Virus record (IMG/VR): IMGVR_UViG_3300021197_000302
Location: 1-23,843 of that record
Reading direction: 5' to 3' (one strand)
Length of the DNA stretch: 23,843 bases
Source of the DNA: a virus
The position numbers and the translations under genes are program-made. The notes beneath the pieces were generated by a model, which did no database searches, was not told where the DNA came from, and saw nothing but the letters and a program-made list of their open reading frames with translations. Every line of letters begins with the position of its first letter. Position 1 is the first letter of the stretch. Of the stretch, positions 723-21,165 are shown piece by piece.

Positions 723-2060
723 TTACAATCCCAACTCCTTGGCCTTTGCTGTCAATCGTAGGCCCGCGCGCTTGGACACATCCAAACGACTGACGTTCAA
801 ATACACCATCAATGATGATTCCGATTCGTGACCAGTCAATGACATCAACTCCCCAAGTGACATGATGTCGAGGTTGTACACGTTCGTCGCGAATGTTCGT
901 CGCGCCGTGTGATTGGTCACCAACTCCCAAAGTTCATTTCGGGAAACATCCTTGGATTTCGCATTGGTGGACGCCTGTTCAACGACACGATCCAGGCCCG
1001 CCGCCTTGCAAACCAACTTCACCGTTGAATTCATCTTTGATTCGTTCGGCAACTTCGGCAATTGGCCTTTGTACCGATTGACGATCCGTTTGACGGGTTC
1101 CAACATCGGGACGGTCACTTCGGAATTGGTCTTGGACTGAATGAATGTCAGTTGATCGGGACAACTGTTTCCGTTCTCCTTGTATCGGAGGGCGATGAGG
1201 TCCCGAAATTGTTTCAGGTCCGACACACGCGCGGCGGTCCAACATGCGATGATGAAATAATCCCGCACCGTATCCCATGAGGTTCGTTCGACACCATTGT
1301 TGTGGACCTTCTTGGGAATTTTGAATGTTTCCAATTGGGACACCTCCTCAATTGTGAGGTGTGGTTTGGCGACCTTGACTTCACGCGGTTTGAACGCGTC
1401 GGATTCCCACTTGCGATTGTTGTGAACCTCGCGTTGAAACGATGTTTTCATCCACGTTTTGATGACCGCCATGTCTTTGGCGATCGTGTTAATTCCAACC
1501 CCCGCAACTTTGCCGTGGCCCTCCGACCTAAATTTTGCCCACTGGCCAACAAACTTTTCGTCAATCTCATCAAACCGAATGACGCGTCCCCACACACGTT
1601 TCGAGAATGCGTCCAACATCTTTTGTGTGGTTCGGTACTTCTGAACGGTTCGACGATCAATTTGACGCCCCATTTGGTTCGTCCTCTCACCACGCTCCGT
1701 TTCCTCAATGAACTCATCCACCCATTGATTGAACGTCAACACCTTTTCGGCGACTCCGACTTTGCCTTCCTTCATTCGCTTCACACCGTCGCGCATTGCC
1801 TCAACGGATAGTTCGACCCCATCGTTGACGACCAATTGATTGTGGAGGTTTACAATGGCTGTGATCGCATTGTCCAAATCACTTTGGAGGGCGATGAGGT
1901 TTTTGGATGTTCCCGTCTTGATCCGTTGGTTGGTTTTGTCCCATGCCGCGGTTGGAATTGAAATCAAACCCGTTTTGAATCGGCGTTTGTTGATGAACGC
2001 GATGAGGTGGACCAACGTTTCGGTCGAATCTGGGCGGGCCAATGTGAGGTTGAATTTCAT
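723..2060 (-). CDS. int: Tyrosine recombinase, phage integrase
   Basis: A 445-residue site-specific recombinase expected to join phage and host DNA at attP/attB and, with an excisionase not seen here, to excise it. The N-terminus (about 1-60, including FKTGLISI and AAWDKTNQRIK) matches the arm-binding region of Bacteroidota integrases. A SAM-like core-binding domain lies at about 105-205 and the catalytic domain at about 230-440. All six active-site positions can be read: R278 (TAARVSDL), K310 (QSKTNSEV), H384 and R387 (NHTARRTF), H411 (LTGHES) and the nucleophile Y420 (MVYLNV). Length is normal and nothing suggests inactivation. The ATG at 2060 overlaps the first of three 12-bp direct repeats, and a Bacteroidota-type promoter lies about 55 nt upstream. 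Transcription runs away from the putative attP and converges with the early operon. Confidence 0.95.
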   Translation of the reverse strand: MKFNLTLARPDSTETLVHLIAFINKRRFKTGLISIPTAAWDKTNQRIKTGTSKNLIALQSDLDNAITAIVNLHNQLVVNDGVELSVEAMRDGVKRMKEGKVGVAEKVLTFNQWVDEFIEETERGERTNQMGRQIDRRTVQKYRTTQKMLDAFSKRVWGRVIRFDEIDEKFVGQWAKFRSEGHGKVAGVGINTIAKDMAVIKTWMKTSFQREVHNNRKWESDAFKPREVKVAKPHLTIEEVSQLETFKIPKKVHNNGVERTSWDTVRDYFIIACWTAARVSDLKQFRDLIALRYKENGNSCPDQLTFIQSKTNSEVTVPMLEPVKRIVNRYKGQLPKLPNESKMNSTVKLVCKAAGLDRVVEQASTNAKSKDVSRNELWELVTNHTARRTFATNVYNLDIMSLGELMSLTGHESESSLMVYLNVSRLDVSKRAGLRLTAKAKELGL

Positions 2061-2339: not shown

Positions 2340-2358
2340 GAACTTGACGACGTCAACC
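2340..2358 (+). promoter_or_regulatory. Directional palindromic motif, copy 1 (holin operon)
   Basis: GAACTTGACGACGTCAACC reads toward the holin gene and ends 18 nt before its ATG. It fits the consensus RAAYTTGACRRCGTCAACS, shared with three other sites in the window, each upstream of a gene start in the same orientation. The core TTGAC-N3-GTCAA is a dyad that could bind a dimeric regulator. No TAnnTTTG box is seen beside it. Confidence 0.6.
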
Positions 2359-6264: not shown

Positions 6265-6482
6265 AGGCCAACGGCGAGGAAAAAGGCCCCAACCCCTGAC
6301 CACCACTTTTTTTGGAGTCCATCAATGACCTCATCGTGTTCCTTGACTTGATCGGAAACACCATCCAATTTGGTTTCGACACGCGCCAACGTCGTGATGA
6401 TTTGGTCCAACTTCTCCATGTGGGTTTCAATTTGTCGACGTGAGTTTTGTTTGGGGTTGACGCTGTCAAATTCTGAATGATT
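6240..6482 (-). CDS. XhlA-like membrane protein of the lysis cassette
   Basis: 80 residues from ATG 6482, or 59 from ATG 6419. The middle is a heptad-patterned coiled coil (MEKLDQIITTLARVETKL, then a second helix up to GLQKK). It ends in a single hydrophobic helix, WWSGVGAFFLAVGLWLKQL, close to the C-terminus. That layout, next to an amidase, resembles the haemolysin XhlA family, membrane-anchored helpers of holin/endolysin lysis. The shorter start would place the repeated palindromic motif (6455-6473) 35 nt upstream of the gene, matching the 33-nt spacing at two other sites. With the longer start the motif lies inside codons 4-10. Confidence 0.6.
   Translation of the reverse strand, partial: NHSEFDSVNPKQNSRRQIETHMEKLDQIITTLARVETKLDGVSDQVKEHDEVIDGLQKKWWSGVGAFFLAVGLWLKQLVG
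6455..6473 (-). promoter_or_regulatory. Directional palindromic motif, copy 2 (lysis cassette)
   Basis: The minus strand reads GAATTTGACAGCGTCAACC, matching RAAYTTGACRRCGTCAACS. It overlaps the stop codon (6468-6466) of the upstream gene and points toward the XhlA-like and amidase genes, ending 35 nt before ATG 6419. The 13-bp core is identical to copy 4 upstream of the portal gene. Confidence 0.6.
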
Positions 6483-6718: not shown

Positions 6719-9700
6719 TCAAATGTTTTGTGAAAATGATTGTAGGTTACTCCCCGTCCCCACACCACTGAAATCCGCGACCTCAATTTCCTCACCCGAA
6801 AAATTGCCCGTGTTGCTTCCGAAAACCTTGATGTTTGTGGCGTCCGTGAAACTTCGATTGGTTGTTACCGTGATACTCCCAAGCGTTGTGGCCGTTGCAA
6901 ATTCAATTTGAACCCATGCATTCGCCGCCGTGCCGTTCCCAATTGTCCACCAACCCGTGTAGGTGTGGACGTCGCCGACTTTCCAAGGTGCGTAGGTTGA
7001 GGAGTGTTGGTAACCACTCGACAAGGTGATCCCCGATTCGCTTGTGTTGCTTGTCAAACTCGTGGTTGGATATTCGGTCCCGCCTCGATTTGCAAGTGTG
7101 AACAATTGGATGTCGCCGACATACATTTTGGCGGAACTCGCTGACCCCGTTGATGTGTATGACTGAAACCGCCAATGACTGAAATTCCTGGTGGCGATAA
7201 CTTCAAAAGTTGATGTTGTTGTGACGCTTCGGAGTTTACCCACATCGGCGGCAAAAATTCGAAGTTCATATCCCGTGGCCACGGTTGATGGCGCGGAAAA
7301 AGTAACGTTCCCACTACTGTCAACGGTCACGGGGTTCGCTGTTTGTTCCACACCTGCGGAGTTGTACACCCTGGCGTCATATGTCCGACCCGCTGAATGA
7401 TTGGAAATCGAAATCCCACTCACTGCGCCCGCCTGTGAGTATGACGACGCCACCCCCGAAACTGTCGGAGAAACGGTCGTCAACAAACCCGATGTGACAC
7501 CATCTTCATCGACTTGAAAAATGGTTGTCCCCGCTTGGTTTTTTACGATGAACGCTTGGGCGGGTTCGTTGCTGTCATAGTCCAAAACAACCGTGACATT
7601 TCCGTTGGATTGTATTTCCAGGTCGGACGGTGACGACCCCGCAACGGTGGACGGACCAATTGCCGATGACCCACCACCAATGAAATTGAGGTTGGTGGTG
7701 TATAGGTCGCCCGATATGGTCGCATCACCTCCAAAGGTTGCGTCGCCTGTGAATGAACCCGCCACGCCCGAAATGGACCCCGTGATTGATCCAATGTTAC
7801 CGACTGAGGCGATCGACCCCGTGGTCACAATGTTGGTGAATGTTGGCGATGAGTTCACGCCGATTGTCACTTCGTCCGTTGTGGCGTCCGTGGTCAACAC
7901 GGCATTGGTTCCCGCGGCCAACGTCAACGTGTCGTTCGTTGCATCGGCCACCACATTTGATTGTCCCGAAACGGCGATCGTTCCAAAGGCGTTTCCACCT
8001 CCTCCACCACTGGATGTTTGCGCGGTCCATTCACTGGACGCGTTGTCCCATGTCAACACTTGACCATCCGTTGGTGAGGCGTTGACGTCATCCAGGTCAT
8101 TCAAATCAATCCCCGACACATTCCCCGAAAACTCGATGTTTGGCAACTGCGAACCCTGGGTCCCCTGAATGGTGATCGCCGTGGAACTTGTTTGACTGTT
8201 CGATGGTCCCACCTGGACGGCCATTTCTATTGACCCTGGTGAGGTTTCGGACATGTCAATGTGTGTGTTTCCCCCACCCGCTTGGAGTTTTGCGGTGGTT
8301 GACGTGAGGCCCATGAATGATGACGTGGTGTTCTTTCCACTGTCAACATATACACCCGCACCGCCACCCGTGAGGGTGGATTTCAAAACGTTTTGGATCG
8401 ACGTGACATCGCTTTCAACGGAGGTGATGTCCGACGCATTTGTCGCAACGCCTGACGCATTGGTTGCGATGTTGGTGACGTTGGTTCCAACCTGGGATTC
8501 GATGGTGTCCAAGTTCACCGCCTGGGTCACTGTGATGTTGTCGGTTTTGGTTTGGATCGCGGTGATGTCATCATACGCCTCGGCGATGATCCCTTGCGTG
8601 AACCCTTCGGGTGTTTCGGTCGACGATGCACCGATCGCACCAACGGGGGCAACACCGCCATTGGGACCACCTCCCGATCCTCCATCCCCTTTTCCTTTTC
8701 CTTTGACGTCTTGGGCCTCCTCATGGCTCAATCGTTGACGCGATTTCACAAAGGCGTCCACGTCAAATGTGGCGGGACCACCTGTCATTGACAACCTCAT
8801 CGGGACCAGGTATTCGACGAGGTCCGATTGGGTCGAACAATTGTGTTTCATCACCGTCAACATGTCCATCGGTGCGGACGTGTTGGATGCGGTTGAATGC
8901 TTTGGGGCAATGACCCCACGTTGAACGCCCATCACGTTCCCCCTCATGAACAAGTGTTCGCGACACATGGCCAACAAAAGTTCGGTGGGTTGATCATCAC
9001 CCGAAACCGAATCGGTCACACTATTCCACCCCGTTGTGGTGAGGAATGGGGTGATTGAATTGACACCGTATTGAATAACCGACAAGGCCCCGTCACTTTG
9101 AGGAACTCCCGCCACGGTGTTGTCGCCCAAGCTGGTTTCCCCAAGGTCAATGAATTCGGTGTTGGATGTTTGCTCAACGAACACATCCACATCGGCGTCA
9201 TCGGAGTTGTTCCCGATTCCCACGACCATGTTGTCCAACCTGTCGGCGGGTGCGCTTTGCGAGTATGACGCCAAATCCGAACCCGTGGAATCGTAATTGA
9301 CGATCGCCACCGATTGGAAAACGTTTTCAAGTTGAGGGAATGTTTGACGGACGTTTCCATCGCATGTGACGACAATTCGGTCAAACGTTATTTCGACCCC
9401 TGTGTATGATGACGAGGTGGATGGCAATGGGACCGTGATGAAATCAATGTCATGGGCGACGTCATCTTGTTGGGTTTGGTTGACCCTGTATTCGAACTCC
9501 GCGTTTTGTGTGGCGCGGATATGCAACCCGCCCACACGGGTCCATCCCTGGGACTCCTCCACCTCGGCGGCGGGTGTTGAATGCGTCCACGGGATGATGA
9601 TGTCAAAAAACTTTTCGGTTGATGACCATGACGGCGATGGGACCGATAATTCCTTGAAATCCAAATCACCACCCGTTCCCGTTGGCATGTCGATTGACGT

Positions 9701-11089
9701 GGTGTCGGTGTCGACCGTGTATTCGCTTCCGTAGTAAAGGGACCCGACTTTGAGTTTGCATCGAAGGACGATCCGCGCCCCAATGCGATCGGTTCCGTAA
9801 TCGTTGACCGCATTTCCCAAAACCCCAAATTCCTTGACAAGATCGCCCGACGTGTATGTCCCACGAATGTTGAATGAATCACCCTCGGACACCACCAAAT
9901 TGGCGTTCCCAAATCCTTTGGTTCCTCCACCGCTGTTGGGATAATCCAAATAAAAATTCCGAGGTACTCCGAAAACGGATCGTTGGCCCGCGTCGGTGAG
10001 TGTAACGGTGGCCCGTTTGACTGGCAACAAATACGAATTGGCCCACCCATCACCCAACGCGTGGTTGGTTTCAACATCCTGTTCGAAGTTGATGTCCTCA
10101 TGGGTTGAGGTGTTCACGTTCAAACTCCCACTCAATGTGGTTTGGATCGTTTCGGTGGCGACCTGGGTTCGTGTCCATTTTTGAACCCGCAATGTGTGCG
10201 CCCAATTGTACGCGTTCGGAGGGAACACCCACCACCCGAATCGAGTGAGGAACATTCGCGCCCCAAGTGCGATGGCGATTTCCTCCAAAACATCACGGCA
10301 TGAATTGAAATCACGGGGTTTGGCAACCCGTCGGTCGTATTTGTCGGTTTTCCCTTCTTTGCGTTTTGAGAATGTCGCGGCGTTCACGACCGTCCTTTCC
10401 AGGACACCCGCGGGGAATGCGTCCCCCGCTGTTGAGGTCCAATTGGACGTGGCCAAATGGCTGTCATTGTAAAGGTCCACCACCTCATTCAATTGGTATT
10501 CCGACCCATTCCAAAAATTGGCGGTCGGGATTTTGTTGAGGCATGTGGCGACCACTTCGGCCAATGACATTTGGTCCAAGTATGCGTCGCCATCATCGGC
10601 GAACTCGATGTCACCCAATCGTTGCAAACCACACGACGCCGACAACGTCACCAAATATGGACGGTCCTTCAATTCATATTCAATGGCCTCATGGTTGAGG
10701 GTTCCCACCCAATATGGTTTCCAGGTTGTTCCCCCGTCGTCATAGTACACCGCCAAACCGAACCGCCTGTCATTGGATGATTTGATGATCGACACCAATG
10801 GTTCCATTGCTGACGTGGAAATGGCCAATGTGATTTCACACGATGACGGGATCAAGGTTCCACCGATGTGATCGGATGGACCGTCCCAACTCAAATTGAA
10901 ACCGTCCGATGTCAACTCCACGTCATGTGGTGCGTCGGATGGTGACAAATTGAACTCGGACGCGGCGATCGACGTGGTTTCATTGTCAATGACTTCGACC
11001 CGCCATTGCCGTCCCTGGGCGTCATAAAATTCCGACGCGTACCGTGCGCGCCAATTGCCTGTTGTGGTGTTGGTTGCTTGATTTGGCAT
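6719..11089 (-). CDS. Tail tip/baseplate protein fused to a tail fibre
   Basis: A 1456-residue structural protein, the largest in the window. Residues 1 to about 790 look like a baseplate or tail-tip protein, beginning with a beta-rich distal-tail-like region (FYDAQGRQWRVEVID) and holding a long middle with no enzymatic motif. A Gly-rich linker lies at about 795-815. A helical heptad region follows (about 835-900, with repeated TNVTNIATNASGVATNASD-type sequence), then a fibre-like beta region with PTDGQVLTWD near 1010 and FGGDATISGDLY near 1120. Next comes a possible Ig-like region at about 1200-1290. The last roughly 150 residues (ANAWVQIEFA and similar strands) resemble a discoidin/F5-8-type carbohydrate-binding domain. 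The C-terminus is the likely receptor-binding end. It overlaps the tape measure stop by one base (TAATG). Confidence 0.8.
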   Translation of the reverse strand: MPNQATNTTTGNWRARYASEFYDAQGRQWRVEVIDNETTSIAASEFNLSPSDAPHDVELTSDGFNLSWDGPSDHIGGTLIPSSCEITLAISTSAMEPLVSIIKSSNDRRFGLAVYYDDGGTTWKPYWVGTLNHEAIEYELKDRPYLVTLSASCGLQRLGDIEFADDGDAYLDQMSLAEVVATCLNKIPTANFWNGSEYQLNEVVDLYNDSHLATSNWTSTAGDAFPAGVLERTVVNAATFSKRKEGKTDKYDRRVAKPRDFNSCRDVLEEIAIALGARMFLTRFGWWVFPPNAYNWAHTLRVQKWTRTQVATETIQTTLSGSLNVNTSTHEDINFEQDVETNHALGDGWANSYLLPVKRATVTLTDAGQRSVFGVPRNFYLDYPNSGGGTKGFGNANLVVSEGDSFNIRGTYTSGDLVKEFGVLGNAVNDYGTDRIGARIVLRCKLKVGSLYYGSEYTVDTDTTSIDMPTGTGGDLDFKELSVPSPSWSSTEKFFDIIIPWTHSTPAAEVEESQGWTRVGGLHIRATQNAEFEYRVNQTQQDDVAHDIDFITVPLPSTSSSYTGVEITFDRIVVTCDGNVRQTFPQLENVFQSVAIVNYDSTGSDLASYSQSAPADRLDNMVVGIGNNSDDADVDVFVEQTSNTEFIDLGETSLGDNTVAGVPQSDGALSVIQYGVNSITPFLTTTGWNSVTDSVSGDDQPTELLLAMCREHLFMRGNVMGVQRGVIAPKHSTASNTSAPMDMLTVMKHNCSTQSDLVEYLVPMRLSMTGGPATFDVDAFVKSRQRLSHEEAQDVKGKGKGDGGSGGGPNGGVAPVGAIGASSTETPEGFTQGIIAEAYDDITAIQTKTDNITVTQAVNLDTIESQVGTNVTNIATNASGVATNASDITSVESDVTSIQNVLKSTLTGGGAGVYVDSGKNTTSSFMGLTSTTAKLQAGGGNTHIDMSETSPGSIEMAVQVGPSNSQTSSTAITIQGTQGSQLPNIEFSGNVSGIDLNDLDDVNASPTDGQVLTWDNASSEWTAQTSSGGGGGNAFGTIAVSGQSNVVADATNDTLTLAAGTNAVLTTDATTDEVTIGVNSSPTFTNIVTTGSIASVGNIGSITGSISGVAGSFTGDATFGGDATISGDLYTTNLNFIGGGSSAIGPSTVAGSSPSDLEIQSNGNVTVVLDYDSNEPAQAFIVKNQAGTTIFQVDEDGVTSGLLTTVSPTVSGVASSYSQAGAVSGISISNHSAGRTYDARVYNSAGVEQTANPVTVDSSGNVTFSAPSTVATGYELRIFAADVGKLRSVTTTSTFEVIATRNFSHWRFQSYTSTGSASSAKMYVGDIQLFTLANRGGTEYPTTSLTSNTSESGITLSSGYQHSSTYAPWKVGDVHTYTGWWTIGNGTAANAWVQIEFATATTLGSITVTTNRSFTDATNIKVFGSNTGNFSGEEIEVADFSGVGTGSNLQSFSQNI

Positions 11090-13887
11090 TATCGACCGCG
11101 ATTTCGTTTTGCCCGTTCTTGGGCCAATAAGATGTCCGAACCATGAATCCGTCCCGTCACATTCATGTTTTGTGATGTCCCCGCAACTTGCCCGAGGAAC
11201 GATCCCATTTTTTCCATTGGGATAACAGCTTCACGGCCCGAGGGATTGTCGCCGATGAGGGCGAGTTGTGGTCCAAGGGTCATTCCCCCGTCATGGAGTT
11301 TTGGAATGGACCCAAGCAATGAGGCGATCGCGGCTTTGTATCCCGCGGCCTTTGCCACACCCGACGCGCCACCCGTGGCGATGTTGTCAGGTGTTGGACT
11401 GAATGCGAGCGCGATGGCATTGGCGACCGCCGATTTGATCGCCCCCAAAATGAGTTGTTGGAATATGTTTGAAACGGACTGACCAAATGAAATGGAATCG
11501 TCGGTGGCGGATGCAAACCCCGCCCCAATGATGTCGGCGGCAACACGTCCCGCATCGGCGGCATTGAACAACGTTTCGGATGTTTGCTTTGCCCCTTCGG
11601 TGTTGGAATCCAACAAGTCCCGCAATTCCAACATTTTGGCATTGAGGACCGTGAATTGTTCCGTGTCAATGAAATCAGGATCGGCCAACAATGAGTTGAC
11701 CAAAAACGATTCGAGTTCGGCGAGGGTCCGTTTGGCCAATTCCATGTCGTCAATGATCCCCAACCCCTTTTGTGTTTGGAGTTCGGCAACTGCGACATTG
11801 AAATCCTCGGCGAGTTTTGCCGCGGTGGATTGTGTGACCTCGGCGAACGTTTGCATTTGGGCAACCAATGCGACCAATGCATCATCCGCATTTTTGAAAT
11901 CCGCGGTGACAATCTCTTTGATCGCCCCTTCGATTGCGGCGAACTTTTGATCATCAAAGTTTTCGCCAAACAACACCTCCAATTCCGCGATGTCGGCGAG
12001 TTCCTTTTTGAGTTCGGATTGTACGTCGGCGAGGGTTTTGGGTGCGTCCTTCAACAACGATGACACGTCGATCGGGTCGGGTTCATCACCGTCAGGGTTC
12101 AACGCCTCATCCAACGCCGATTGGAATTTGTCGCGCTTGGCCTCCAATCCTGAACGGTATTCACTCACGGTGGCGTCGACCACCTTTTGCAAACGGCCTT
12201 CGACAAATGCGATGGCGTCATCACCGAACAATCCTTGTTGGACTGCCTGGGCGGTGAGGATGTTGATTTGTTCTTGGAGTTTGGTTCCGAGTTCCTTTTT
12301 CAGCAACGGGGAAAGTTCATCCCCGATTTTGCCAATGTCCTGAACCCTGAATCCCGTTCGATCAAGTTCGACGGACACTTTGGATGAAACCGCCTTTGTG
12401 TTGAACGCCTCCAATTGGGCGTTGATTTGCGCCACCCCATTCCTCAATTCCTTGATGGACGCCATGTTGACATCCAGGTTGAGGGCGGTTCGTAGGATGC
12501 CCACTTGTTTGGCCAACTCAATGTTGGCGGCGCGGGTTTGCTCAACCAACTCACGTTCCTCATCGGACATTTTGCCCATGTTCGCGATGAACGGAATGGC
12601 CACCGCGGTGATGGCGGTGATGACTGTGATGATGGCCCCAATGGGATTGGCGGCGACCGCCCGTCCTAATGTGCGAACCATGACGGCCATTCGTTTGAAA
12701 CGCATGTTGGCCGTGAATCCTTTGGCGGCGACGGCGGTGAATGCCTGGGACATACCCAACACCAACCGTGTCACACCACCCGCGATGGATGTGAGTGGAC
12801 CCAATGCCGCAATGAATGCGACAACCTTGATGGTTGTTTTTTGTGTTTCGGATGACATCGCCCCAAATGCTTGGGCCATGCTTTTGATCCTGTCAATGAT
12901 TTTGAGGACCACGGGGGCGAGTGCGTTTCCGATTTGGATTTGTGCGCCCTCTATGGCGGATTTCATGGATGCGATGCCCCCTTTGGCGGAATCATCCATT
13001 TCATCGGACATGGCTTTGGCCCGTCCTTCGGATGACTTTAATTCCAACCCGAGGGCGGCGAGGTCATCTTTGTTTTTCCCAAGGATCGGGGAAAGGATCG
13101 CGGCCCGTTTCCCAAGCAAATCGACGGCGTCTTTGTAGGACAACGAACCGTTGATGATCCCCGTGAAAACCTCTTTGACGTTGAACCCCTCGGCGGCCAA
13201 CTGTGAAAACGCCATTTTGAGTTTGGTTCCCGCGTCGGTTCCTTCAATCCCATTGTTGGCGAGTACACCCAACAACGCGGTGGTTTCCTCCAAGCTGAAC
13301 CCAAATTCCTTGGCGACTGGGGCCACGTTGCCCATTGCCCCACCAAACTTTTCAAGGTCCAAGGCGGACGCACCAAATGCGGTGGCCATGACATCAGCAA
13401 CCGCGCCCGCGTCCTCGGCCTCCAACCCAAATTGGTTGATGGTTTTGACGACTGTTTCGGCGGTTGGTCCCAATTCATTCCCGAACGCCTGGGCGAGTGA
13501 CAAGGTGGATGATGTCGCCTTGACAATCTCATCGGAGGAAAGGCCCAATTTTGCCATTTCCAATTGGAGGGATGACACGGACGAAGCGGAAAAAACGGTG
13601 GACGCGCCCAAGTCCAACGCGCTTTGGTTGAGTTTGTCAAACTCTTTTCCCGTGGCCCCTGACACGGCCTTCACTTTTTTCATCGCCAATTCAAAATCGG
13701 CGGCCACCTTGAATGATGACGCGCCGATCGCGGCGAGTGGTGCGGTGAGGCCAATGGTGAGGCCACGACCAACACTCGAAAGTTGGGTGGATGTTGCTTT
13801 GAGTTTGCGTTGGGCCGATGTCAACCCCCGTTCAAATTTGTCACTTTTTAATCCGAGGACGACGGAAAGGAGGGATTGACGCGCCAT
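11089..13887 (-). CDS. Tail tape measure protein (TP901 family)
   Basis: A 932-residue protein that sets tail length and occupies the tail lumen. The N-terminal 30-330 region has the TP901-type core (ALDLGASTVFSASSVSSLQ, then a Leu/Ala-rich domain with NNGIEGTDAGTKLKMAF). Hydrophobic segments lie at about 350-375 and 407-435, with another at about 800-830; these may insert into the host membrane during DNA ejection. Long charged helices fill 440-780. The end carries GPQLALIGDNPSGREAVIP, a motif commonly found near the C-terminus of tape measures. At roughly 1.5 angstroms per residue it would imply a tail of about 140 nm, a rule of thumb only. The gene overlaps the chaperone extension upstream by 40 nt. 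Confidence 0.92.
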   Translation of the reverse strand: MARQSLLSVVLGLKSDKFERGLTSAQRKLKATSTQLSSVGRGLTIGLTAPLAAIGASSFKVAADFELAMKKVKAVSGATGKEFDKLNQSALDLGASTVFSASSVSSLQLEMAKLGLSSDEIVKATSSTLSLAQAFGNELGPTAETVVKTINQFGLEAEDAGAVADVMATAFGASALDLEKFGGAMGNVAPVAKEFGFSLEETTALLGVLANNGIEGTDAGTKLKMAFSQLAAEGFNVKEVFTGIINGSLSYKDAVDLLGKRAAILSPILGKNKDDLAALGLELKSSEGRAKAMSDEMDDSAKGGIASMKSAIEGAQIQIGNALAPVVLKIIDRIKSMAQAFGAMSSETQKTTIKVVAFIAALGPLTSIAGGVTRLVLGMSQAFTAVAAKGFTANMRFKRMAVMVRTLGRAVAANPIGAIITVITAITAVAIPFIANMGKMSDEERELVEQTRAANIELAKQVGILRTALNLDVNMASIKELRNGVAQINAQLEAFNTKAVSSKVSVELDRTGFRVQDIGKIGDELSPLLKKELGTKLQEQINILTAQAVQQGLFGDDAIAFVEGRLQKVVDATVSEYRSGLEAKRDKFQSALDEALNPDGDEPDPIDVSSLLKDAPKTLADVQSELKKELADIAELEVLFGENFDDQKFAAIEGAIKEIVTADFKNADDALVALVAQMQTFAEVTQSTAAKLAEDFNVAVAELQTQKGLGIIDDMELAKRTLAELESFLVNSLLADPDFIDTEQFTVLNAKMLELRDLLDSNTEGAKQTSETLFNAADAGRVAADIIGAGFASATDDSISFGQSVSNIFQQLILGAIKSAVANAIALAFSPTPDNIATGGASGVAKAAGYKAAIASLLGSIPKLHDGGMTLGPQLALIGDNPSGREAVIPMEKMGSFLGQVAGTSQNMNVTGRIHGSDILLAQERAKRNRGR

Positions 13888-14571: not shown

Positions 14572-14997
14572 TCAACTGAAGTTTCCTGTTGACATTGTGT
14601 CACAATCGAAGGACACCGAAAATGATGTTGAGTCGTTCAATGGTGCGGTTTCTTCGAAACTGGTGATGTATGCGTTGACCTGGACATATGGGTCACCCGT
14701 GACGCCCGATCCGTATCGGAGGGTCAATTGTGTTTTGTCTTTGACCGATGCGAAAAGTTGTGTTCGTCCGACGTTGTTGTATGCTGTCAATCCTTCGATC
14801 GTGATGTTGATGGACTGTTGACCAGGCAACACGGAACGCGCGCCGTCGTTGTCCTTACAAACTGTTTCGATCATGTCGTTGGTGATGTTCAACGATGCGT
14901 TGGTCCCGCATGCGATGAGGTCATATCCGACGGGGTCGGAATCGTCGGCGATGTACACCCCGACGAGGTTTCCTTTTACTGTTCCTGTGGTTGCCAT
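14572..14997 (-). CDS. Major tail tube protein
   Basis: A 141-residue protein matching the compact tail tube class (TP901-1/phi13 type). It begins MATTGTVKGNLVGVYIAD, then shows beta strands with ASLNITNDMIETVCKD, an ITIEGLTAYN stretch and a C-terminal SFSVSFDCDTMSTGNFS. Many copies stack as rings around the tape measure to form the tail tube. It sits just upstream of the chaperone pair and downstream of the small Cys-rich gene, the canonical tail-gene order. The length is at the short end for tube proteins, with no decorative Ig-like domain. Confidence 0.88.
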   Translation of the reverse strand: MATTGTVKGNLVGVYIADDSDPVGYDLIACGTNASLNITNDMIETVCKDNDGARSVLPGQQSINITIEGLTAYNNVGRTQLFASVKDKTQLTLRYGSGVTGDPYVQVNAYITSFEETAPLNDSTSFSVSFDCDTMSTGNFS

Positions 14998-15000
14998 GTG

Positions 15001-15276
15001 TTATTGTTTGGAGGTTGTTTTTGGTTTCGCCTTACGTCGGGACCGCTTTGGTTTGGGCGCATCCTGTGCGGCCTTTTCGTTGCATTTCTCACACGGTTCA
15101 TTTGACTCATCCTCACACGGACATTTGTGTGTCGGTGGTGGATCGGTCACGGTTGGATGGATGATCGCGACGCCCTCATCAATGAGGCGGCGTCCCATCA
15201 CCTCATCGTCAATGATGATGGTGTGTCCAACTGGCCAATTGCGGCCCTCGGGGGTGGCGATTATTTGGAGTTTCAC
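15001..15276 (-). CDS. Small protein with Cys cluster and basic tail
   Basis: 91 residues from a GTG start at 15276. The first half resembles a small domain often found in phage head or tail genes (NWPVGHTIIIDDEVMGRRL, then EEGV-like DEGVAII). A cluster CPC-x7-C-x2-C follows (HKCPCEDESNEPCEKC) that could bind a metal. The last 20 residues are strongly basic (PKPKRSRRKAKPK). It is the first gene of the tail transcription unit and lies just downstream of a copy of the repeated palindromic motif. Its role is unknown; a structural or DNA-contacting role near the neck is only a guess. Confidence 0.6.
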   Translation of the reverse strand: MKLQIIATPEGRNWPVGHTIIIDDEVMGRRLIDEGVAIIHPTVTDPPPTHKCPCEDESNEPCEKCNEKAAQDAPKPKRSRRKAKPKTTSKQ

Positions 15277-15309: not shown

Positions 15310-15328
15310 CGTTGACGTTGTCAAGTTC
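15310..15328 (-). promoter_or_regulatory. Directional palindromic motif, copy 3 (tail operon)
   Basis: The minus strand reads GAACTTGACAACGTCAACG, matching RAAYTTGACRRCGTCAACS. It lies 33 nt upstream of the GTG start of the first tail-unit gene, the same spacing as copy 4 to the portal start. It is also 38 nt upstream, in reverse, of the rightward cargo gene at 15367, so one site could act on both. Confidence 0.6.
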
Positions 15329-15366: not shown

Positions 15367-16053
15367 ATGATGGAACAATGGAAACAACGTTTGTACGGAC
15401 TTTGGGAATTCATGGGGTTTGACGCCGCAACCGTGGCCGAATATGAACGGATTTTGTTTTATGATGTGGACCCGAAAAAATCGTTGAAAGAAAATGCGTT
15501 CATGATGGGGGGCCAAACACGTTTGTTGTGGTTGGAAAATGCGGGAATTCATCAAATCCAACACACCGTGGACGAATACTTGGCGGCGTGGTGGTTTGCT
15601 TATGGCATGGACGAACATGGACAACAACAATGGTTCGCATGGGACGAGGTGATCGAGCGATTGCGCGACACATTGGTGGGATCAAAACCGTGTGTGTTTT
15701 GGAATCAAATGGACGCGACCGAACGTCACGCATGGCGTCAACTCCCAAAGGCATTTCCAAGGACTTCAAACCGTTGGCCGATTCAACCCACATTCACATT
15801 GTTCCGTGGGATTGGTGTTCCTCAATCCGATGAACCGTCGACGAAGGGTTACGATGTCGGGATTTCTTGGACCGACTCATTGGAAACGGCGCAATGGTTC
15901 GCCAAACGTTACAAGTCGGAAACGGTCAATGGTTATGTCCTGGAATATGAATTCACAATCCACGAAATTTTGGGCGTGAAACTCGGTCGCAATGAACGCG
16001 AATTCATTGTTGACCCTGGGGATGTGATGGACGTTTCGGTGACTCAAGTGTGA
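15367..16053 (+). CDS. Putative ADP-ribosyltransferase-like cargo gene (moron)
   Basis: A 228-residue protein encoded against the direction of the surrounding head and tail genes. Residues 1 to about 125 are helical and tryptophan-rich with no known motif. From about 131 the pattern of an R-S-E mono-ADP-ribosyltransferase can be read: R137 in TLFRGIG, S167-W-T169 in GISWTDSLETAQWFAKRY (the STS-type box plus helix), and E210-R-E212 in LGRNEREFIVDP (the ExE box). If so, it would move ADP-ribose from NAD onto a host or phage target; the N-terminal half may select the target. The assignment rests on motif order and spacing, without a structural test. It has no signal peptide. Its 3' end overlaps the convergent tail completion gene by 10 nt. 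A host-takeover or superinfection-exclusion role is plausible but unproven. Confidence 0.55.
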   Translation: MMEQWKQRLYGLWEFMGFDAATVAEYERILFYDVDPKKSLKENAFMMGGQTRLLWLENAGIHQIQHTVDEYLAAWWFAYGMDEHGQQQWFAWDEVIERLRDTLVGSKPCVFWNQMDATERHAWRQLPKAFPRTSNRWPIQPTFTLFRGIGVPQSDEPSTKGYDVGISWTDSLETAQWFAKRYKSETVNGYVLEYEFTIHEILGVKLGRNEREFIVDPGDVMDVSVTQV

Positions 16054-16448
16054 CCCAATTGGGCCGTCCTTTTCACCGTCACGATGTATTCGGAAATCGT
16101 GATGAACGTTTCGTCCTCGGCTGACATGCCCGTTTCCAGGTCGTCAAATCGGACCTCCAATTGTTCCCCGTTTACGGTCCCGACATATTGGTCGAGTTCA
16201 TTTCGGCAACTCATGGCGAGGTCATACGATTGTTTGGGGTTGTCACTGTATGTGGACACCTGGATCGTGATGAAATCCAAATCACTGGATTGGTGTTTGG
16301 TTTCATTGGTTTTGATGTCAATGAGGTCCACCACTATGGCGGGCAACCCTGACCCCTGTTTCCTTTGGATGGGAAAGATTTGTGACGTTCCCACCGCGTT
16401 GGCGATGGTCAAATCGTTTTGTAGGATGGCGACAATTTCTCCGATCAT
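16044..16448 (-). CDS. Tail completion/terminator protein (DUF3168-like)
   Basis: A 134-residue protein with the profile of DUF3168/gpU-like tail terminator proteins: an N-terminal helix (MIGEIVAILQNDLTIANAVG), then IFPIQRKQGSGLPAIVVDLI, DFITIQVSTYSDNPKQSYDLA, and a final strand before TVKRTAQ. These proteins cap the tail tube and join it to the head. It overlaps the gp10-like gene upstream by ATGA. Its place after gp10 and before the tail genes is canonical, although the rightward cargo gene now separates it from the tail tube. Confidence 0.82.
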   Translation of the reverse strand: MIGEIVAILQNDLTIANAVGTSQIFPIQRKQGSGLPAIVVDLIDIKTNETKHQSSDLDFITIQVSTYSDNPKQSYDLAMSCRNELDQYVGTVNGEQLEVRFDDLETGMSAEDETFITISEYIVTVKRTAQLGHT

Positions 16449-16918
16449 AGGATGACGATGTTGTTGATTTCCTTGGCGATGCGTGTTTCAGCTTCACCCG
16501 CTTTGGTTTTGAATGCCTTGTCGATGAACCCCACTCCCCTCACCCCACGACGTTCGATTGACTTGACACGGATGGTTCCACCCCCTGGGACGAACACGGA
16601 AAATTTCCCGCGTTTGGCCGTGTAGGTTCCACCCCTTGATCCGAGTTCAACGATGTGGGCATATGGTGCGCCCTTCTTGCCACCCCTGGGTCCAATGATG
16701 ATGTTTTCCCCCGCGGCTCGGTTTTTCTTGCCACGCCTGGTGGCGATGGACTTGTGGAGGCGGCCCGATCGTTTTGGGGCCAATTGTTTCATTTCCCTTT
16801 TGATCGGTGGCGCGCCTTTTCGGAGAATCTTGACCGCACCTTTGCGGCCCAATTTCCCCTCCAATCGTCGCAACCGTTGGGACAACTTGTCGATCCCTTC
16901 AATTCGAATGTCACTCAT
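16445..16918 (-). CDS. HK97 gp10-like head-tail/tail completion protein
   Basis: 157 residues from ATG 16918 (MSDIRIEGIDKLSQRLRRL). The frame is open to 16990, but that extension lies inside the upstream gene, and the chosen start gives an 8-nt overlap. The HK97 gp10 hallmarks are present: an N-terminal amphipathic helix, PPIKREMKQLAPKRSGRLHKS, the APYAHIVELGS segment and a C-terminal helix. It is strongly basic. It helps complete the neck between connector and tail terminator. Confidence 0.88.
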   Translation of the reverse strand: MSDIRIEGIDKLSQRLRRLEGKLGRKGAVKILRKGAPPIKREMKQLAPKRSGRLHKSIATRRGKKNRAAGENIIIGPRGGKKGAPYAHIVELGSRGGTYTAKRGKFSVFVPGGGTIRVKSIERRGVRGVGFIDKAFKTKAGEAETRIAKEINNIVIL

Positions 16919-17234
16919 CGTTGTCGCGTCGTGTTGTGATGAGTCGATGACCACACCCACGTCCAATGGTTTCGATGGATTGGATGTCATAGAATGCCCC
17001 CGCGTATGAAATGCGGTCCGTCACCTCAACATCGGTGTTTGGTCGAATCGTGAAATACACGCGGTCCACATTGACCCGCTGTTCGGCGGATTGGGTTTCC
17101 CGTCCACCTTTGAAATTGACGGATGCCCAAATGGTGTTTCGGTCCGAATATGTGACCACCGAATGGTTCCAACTGTCATTGGTGACGGTTCGTTTTTGGT
17201 GGGTGATCCGTTTGTCAAGGCGGCCAATGTTCAT
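16911..17234 (-). CDS. Head-tail adaptor/head closure protein
   Basis: A 107-residue protein of the head-tail joining type (SPP1 gp16-like): start MNIGRLDKRITHQKRT, then IWASVNFKGGRETQSAEQ, VYFTIRPNTDVEVTDRISY and FYDIQSIE. This beta-barrel family closes the packaged head beneath the connector. It overlaps the upstream connector gene by ATGA and the downstream gp10-like gene by 8 nt. Confidence 0.85.
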   Translation of the reverse strand: MNIGRLDKRITHQKRTVTNDSWNHSVVTYSDRNTIWASVNFKGGRETQSAEQRVNVDRVYFTIRPNTDVEVTDRISYAGAFYDIQSIETIGRGCGHRLITTRRDNDE

Positions 17235-21146: not shown

Positions 21147-21165
21147 CGTTGACGCTGTCAAGTTT
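21147..21165 (-). promoter_or_regulatory. Directional palindromic motif, copy 4 (portal/head operon)
   Basis: The minus strand reads AAACTTGACAGCGTCAACG, matching RAAYTTGACRRCGTCAACS. It begins at the last base of the upstream gene's stop codon and ends 33 nt before the portal start. The 51-nt gap it occupies is long for this tightly packed operon, which supports a regulatory role. Confidence 0.6.

Follow-up and report, generated by a model that had tools for sequence, protein, structure and literature searches.

Genomic context of the predicted ADP-ribosyltransferase gene

The window, which is the whole 23.8-kb stretch of one virus record that was analyzed here (23,843 nucleotides), looks like a portion of a temperate siphovirus genome, and the host group is probably Bacteroidota. 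In addition to the integrase and tail genes (Table 1), PHROG matches name the major head protein, portal, large terminase, and amidase. A 1456-aa protein encoded on the minus strand (positions 6719 to 11089), downstream of the tape measure gene, has no match to any PHROG.

The gene of interest is an ORF on the plus strand (15367 to 16053) that starts with ATG, encodes 228 amino acids, and runs opposite to the leftward structural operon. Its 3' end overlaps the end of the tail terminator gene by 10 bp, and a gap of 90 bp separates it from the small gene on its other side. The preliminary description had reported a lone rightward gene within a leftward structural operon, and the ORF and the strands of its neighbors agree with this. 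The same description had placed it between the tail completion and tail tube genes; leftward tail genes do flank it, but the adjoining gene is more exactly the tail terminator gene, with the Neck1/tail completion gene next. Homologues with 86% protein identity were found at the same place and in the same orientation in two IMG/VR contigs (L001 and L002). Because these same-strand homologues lie at the same site, and others occur in many phages and bacteria, the ORF is, on comparative grounds, a protein-coding gene. A spurious antisense ORF was also considered and was ruled out by the homology and the conserved place.

Table 1. Features of the predicted ADP-ribosyltransferase (ART) gene and its surroundings in the window
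Feature	Position	Strand	Basis or remark
Integrase gene (temperate lifestyle)	723..2060	-	phrog_1, E 7e-21
Tape measure gene	11089..13887		PHROG match
Major tail (tube) protein gene	14572..14997	-	phrog_1407, E 4e-21
Small gene upstream of the major tail protein gene	15001..15276	-	Conserved in relatives; without PHROG match
Palindrome TTGACnnnGTCAA at the slot edge	15312..15324	.	Kept in occupied and empty slots
Variable cargo slot, palindrome to tail terminator stop codon	15331..16043	.	Ends inferred from empty and differently filled relatives
Predicted R-S-ExE ADP-ribosyltransferase gene, 228 aa	15367..16053	+	ORF, conservation, AlphaFold2
Predicted N-terminal all-helical lobe, residues 1-124	15367..15738	+	AlphaFold2
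Predicted C-terminal ART core, residues 141-228	15787..16050	+	AlphaFold2, fold search; PHROG 4776 match to residues 129-227
R147 codon, catalytic-type arginine, strand 1	15805..15807	+	40/40 relatives
S167-W168-T169 motif, strand 2	15865..15873	+	S 38/40, W 39/40, T or S 40/40
E210-x-E212 motif, strand 5	15994..16002	+	Both Glu 40/40
Tail terminator gene	16044..16448	-	phrog_347, E 5e-9
Neck1/tail completion gene	16445..16990		PHROG match

A variable cargo slot next to a palindrome

Relatives of the locus were located through the flanking tail genes and then compared. The ART gene occupies the slot in the window and in two contigs. The slot is empty at 11 loci, where the tail terminator and the small gene are 45 to 80 bp apart, and it is filled by other inserts in five contigs. 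The cargo genes of every insert examined lie opposite to the operon strand. The earlier suggestion that this is a cargo gene is strengthened by these empty or differently filled relatives: the gene is facultative, located between conserved genes and absent or replaced in close relatives, which is one mark of a moron or lysogenic-conversion gene. The flanking genes of L117, which holds a different insert, are 95 to 97% identical to those of the window, and the cargo exchange was therefore recent.

The alternative cargo lies at 2337 to 4379 in L117, 1011 to 2268 in L130, 1329 to 2372 in L131, and 1899 to 2780 in L138. Between them, L117 and L138 encode a lipoprotein-like protein and a predicted secreted protein with a Fib_succ_major domain, L117 and L130 encode predicted secreted proteins with DxDxDG-like repeats, and L131 encodes a membrane protein with a bacterial PH domain (bPH_2) together with a predicted secreted protein. 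The signal sequences of this cargo look Bacteroidota-like.

The palindrome at the slot edge also holds a TTGAC -35-like hexamer upstream of the ART gene, and a scan for sigma-70-like promoters gave one match, at 15312, which is no more than shuffled sequences yield. Four perfect copies of TTGACnnnGTCAA are present in the window (2344 to 2356, 6457 to 6469, 15312 to 15324, and 21149 to 21161), each of them at a border between genes and in most cases shortly before a start codon. Allowing up to one mismatch raises the count to 8, whereas shuffled sequences predict 1.7. Related phage records of 22 to 28 kb contain 2 to 4 copies each, and a control pattern occurs 0 to 1 times. The palindrome is possibly an operator or a stoperator-like site.

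Conserved residues and predicted fold

Conservation was counted over 40 aligned relatives, most of which share only 16 to 28% identity with the query while keeping the R-S-ExE residues. The conserved arginine is R147 in the motif L-F-R147-G148, with both R147 and G148 present in all 40 sequences. S167 is found in 38 and W168 in 39 of them, position 169 is always T or S, and E210 and E212 are invariant, as are A175, F178, and R208. The spacing is 10 to 19 residues from R to S and 41 to 47 from S to the second E. The preliminary description had named R137, S167-W-T169, and E210-x-E212 as an R-S-E signature and expected R137, S167, and E212 to be conserved in homologues. The serine and glutamate motifs are where it put them, and S167 and E212 are conserved; the arginine had been misplaced, since residue 137 is W, the segment with R136 is absent from 37 of the 40 relatives, and R147 takes its place. 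A catalytic arginine at 136/137 was accordingly rejected.

The AlphaFold2 model of the window protein, built from the 40-row alignment, has a pLDDT of 82.5 and a pTM of 0.76. Residues up to 124 are all-helical, followed by strands at 142-152, 167-169, 187-197, 201-207, 210-215, and 224-227 and a helix at 172-182. The predicted core thus consists of six strands and one main helix, with R147 on strand 1, S167 on strand 2, and E210/E212 on strand 5. According to a review of ART structures, the core comprises six strands and one helix and carries R on the first strand, S on the second, and E on the fifth (PMC7827354). The predicted C-terminal half shows this strand order, in line with the ART fold expected in the preliminary description. 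The turn between strands 4 and 5 is only about two residues long. The position of the canonical ARTT loop aromatic, the third of eight residues ending in E212, is occupied by G207, and the E210-x-E212 part of the loop is present. The same R/S/E strand order was repeated in the model of a relative from Clostridia (AlphaFold2, pLDDT of 90.7).

Neither the window protein nor the Clostridia relative matched a PDB fold at an E value of ≤1e-3. Of the 10 best-ranked entries found with the window protein, 6 are named ART enzymes or toxins, namely, Vis, cholera toxin A (twice), TreX-TriX complexes (two, counted by entry name and not by chain), and Tpt1; the best of these has an E value of 0.26. Two further top matches are CNFy chains, which were left outside the ART count. 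For the Clostridia relative, 7 of the top 11 matches are chains of KptA, an ART-fold enzyme, with Foldseek probabilities of 0.80 to 0.99; its first six matches are all KptA chains, with E values of 0.02 to 0.1 (best, 0.022). In a library of viral models, the best fold match is the relative in Gordonia phage Octobien14 (E value of 7e-8).

Family distribution and evolution

The window protein has no credible match in Pfam, NCBIfam, or the PADLOC defense families, and the family profile matched no solved structure when compared with PDB sequences. PHROG 4776, with members in more than 100 Mycobacterium and Gordonia phage records, matches residues 129 to 227 with an E value of 5e-10. No publication on PHROG 4776 or on a named mycobacteriophage ART was retrieved in a literature search. 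Relatives are present in phages of Mycobacterium, Gordonia, Ruegeria, Mesorhizobium, and Lysinibacillus, in large-genome viral contigs, and at 52 bacterial loci, mostly in gut Clostridia; a second profile scan of the viral contigs added none. Two viral contigs, each longer than 400 kb, encode an ART-like domain that runs in frame into a C-terminal region in which HD-hydrolase-like motifs can be discerned by eye (L021, 5428 to 6645, and L022, 5455 to 6735).

No single-sequence match was found between the window protein and T4 ModA/ModB. At the profile level, the ModA/ModB alignment matched the C-terminal profile of the family with an hhalign E value of 3.9e-4 and a score of 29.9, and the highest score in 100 column shuffles of this comparison was 19.5. 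Profiles built from the phage sequences or the Clostridia sequences only gave E values of 7e-4 and 4e-4, respectively. The alignment pairs R147-G148 with R73-G74 of ModB and S167 with S99, and R73 is required for the activity of ModB (PMC10468400). Only the segment with the R and S motifs aligns confidently; the ExE was not placed, even when an end-to-end alignment was forced, because the ModB segment there is longer.

Motif conservation, the predicted fold, fold searches led by ARTs, and a ModA/ModB profile match that exceeds its shuffles all support the proposal that the cargo gene encodes an R-S-E ADP-ribosyltransferase. Weighing against it are the failure to find a PDB fold match at an E value of ≤1e-3 or a sequence match to a solved structure, the restriction of the ModA/ModB alignment to the R and S motifs, and G207 and the short strand 4-5 turn at the ARTT loop. 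This prediction is considered probable, at roughly 0.7.

Between the window and L002, dN/dS is 0.48 for the ART gene, 0.04 for the tail terminator, and 0.29 for the major tail protein. Most of the differences in the ART gene fall within its first 95 codons. In the block from 15459 to 15512 (residues about 31 to 52), 28 of 50 bases are identical, whereas the remaining blocks of the gene have 41 to 50 identical bases out of 50, a pattern in the predicted helical lobe as in recombination or diversifying selection.

Possible function

In total, 22 of the 52 bacterial loci have an ArdA antirestriction gene near the family gene within the fetched DNA, and in 11 of the 52, ArdA is immediately upstream, stop to start. 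Since the background in the same genomes is about one ArdA per Mb, this association exceeds chance, although the loci are not independent and many come from related mobile elements. Three proteins of about 400 aa encoded directly upstream of an ART-like gene (L085, 930 to 2138; L055, 6262 to 7455; L069, 6373 to 7533) combine an ArdA domain at the C terminus with about 210 aa of other sequence in the N-terminal half. Antirestriction and anti-CRISPR genes are known to cluster on mobile elements (PMC7648647), and AcrIF11, an ART of phages and plasmids, is an anti-CRISPR (PMC12421852). Counter-defense is the first guess for the family because of the ArdA proximity, this gene clustering, and the AcrIF11 precedent. 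The suggestion draws on distant relatives, about 20 to 25% identical, and the other cargo of the slot, mostly predicted secreted proteins and not known counter-defense, appears to count against it. Host takeover or superinfection exclusion may be envisaged instead. The odds that the predicted ART serves counter-defense or host takeover are put at about even.

The gene would be a moron-type lysogenic-conversion gene carried by a temperate siphovirus whose host is probably a member of the Bacteroidota. Its product may be an R-S-E mono-ADP-ribosyltransferase that works in the cytoplasm, with the helical N-terminal lobe packed against a minimal ART core. In such an enzyme, R147 and S167 would bind NAD+, and E210/E212 would be responsible for cleavage of the nicotinamide bond and for transfer of ADP-ribose to a cellular macromolecule. 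Since the slot is exchangeable and the gene is oriented against the late operon, expression could be independent of the late genes, either in the prophage state or at an early stage of infection. The most likely purpose would be counter-defense or takeover through the modification of a host or rival-phage factor.

An R-S-E ART-fold protein might also act as an NADase or small-molecule modifier that depletes NAD+ or makes a signal in the lysogen and so aborts superinfection. Some ART families do act as NADases (PMC9503650), cargo slots borne by lysogens suit superinfection exclusion, and a very short strand 4-5 turn replaces the full ARTT loop in the minimal core. However, ExE is a motif typical of transferases, the nearest profile is that of the protein modifiers ModA/ModB, the slot holds no antitoxin or partner gene, and PADLOC gave no defense-family match for the window protein, which makes this activity unlikely. 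Packaging of the effector in the head or tail, with synthesis alongside the structural proteins and injection like T4 Alt, would fit the pattern that phage ART genes often neighbor virion genes, with packaging predicted for their products (PMC9503650); it is rendered quite improbable by the gene strand opposite to the late operon, the empty slot in many relatives, and the resemblance of the other cargo to secreted lysogen products. That the protein is degenerate and binds a partner without catalysis, as the weak fold scores and its faster change than the tail terminator might suggest, is very unlikely because motif residues invariant or nearly so in phages and bacteria are hard to explain without catalysis.

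A macromolecule-modifying ART remains the preferred reading. A broader proposal, put forward tentatively and at clearly less than even odds, is that a previously unannotated minimal R-S-E ART family common to phages of several bacterial groups and to mobile elements of gut Clostridia is an enzymatic counter-defense module, which is joined to ArdA in Clostridia and is here one of the alternative cargoes of a palindrome-marked slot in the tail operon.

ADP-ribosyltransferases are among the main means by which phages take over their hosts, and at least one of these enzymes acts as a block to CRISPR-Cas. Phage ARTs themselves are already known; what is new is the predicted ART annotation for a family carried as "hypothetical protein" in more than 100 phage records. 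The same family occurs on bacterial mobile elements beside antirestriction genes, and the exact residues to mutate are now defined. The location of the ART gene in a cargo slot abutting a conserved palindrome and the proximity of its Clostridia relatives to ArdA are likewise new. The slot itself is a defined cargo site in marine temperate phages, at which alternative lysogenic genes can be compared while the rest of the sequence stays nearly the same.

Comparison with known systems

The FRG domain (PF08867) also has an F/Y-R-G motif followed by an A-x-x-F-A motif; it was rejected as a candidate, with no Pfam match and a nonsignificant hhalign E value of 0.05. The profile of PHROG 4776 matches the C-terminal half of the window protein, whereas the N-terminal halves hardly align, and the group is annotated as "unknown function". 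The active site of AcrIF11 is not known to be of the R-S-E type. AcrIF11 is similarly a small ART on phages and mobile elements that is used in counter-defense (PMC12421852). Like T4 ModA/ModB, which are ARTs of the R-S-E clade, the window protein is a stand-alone phage protein of about 200 aa, with the motifs [LF]-[YF]-R-G, S-[FW]-T, A-x-x-F-A-like, and E-x-E in the same order. It differs in how far S lies from the second Glu of ExE, with 41 to 47 residues here and about 73 in ModB, and in its setting, since the Mod genes belong to lytic T4-type phages, whereas the window gene lies outside any T4-like early region. Although not classed as a member, the window protein appears, from these sequence comparisons, to be related to the T4 Mod family.
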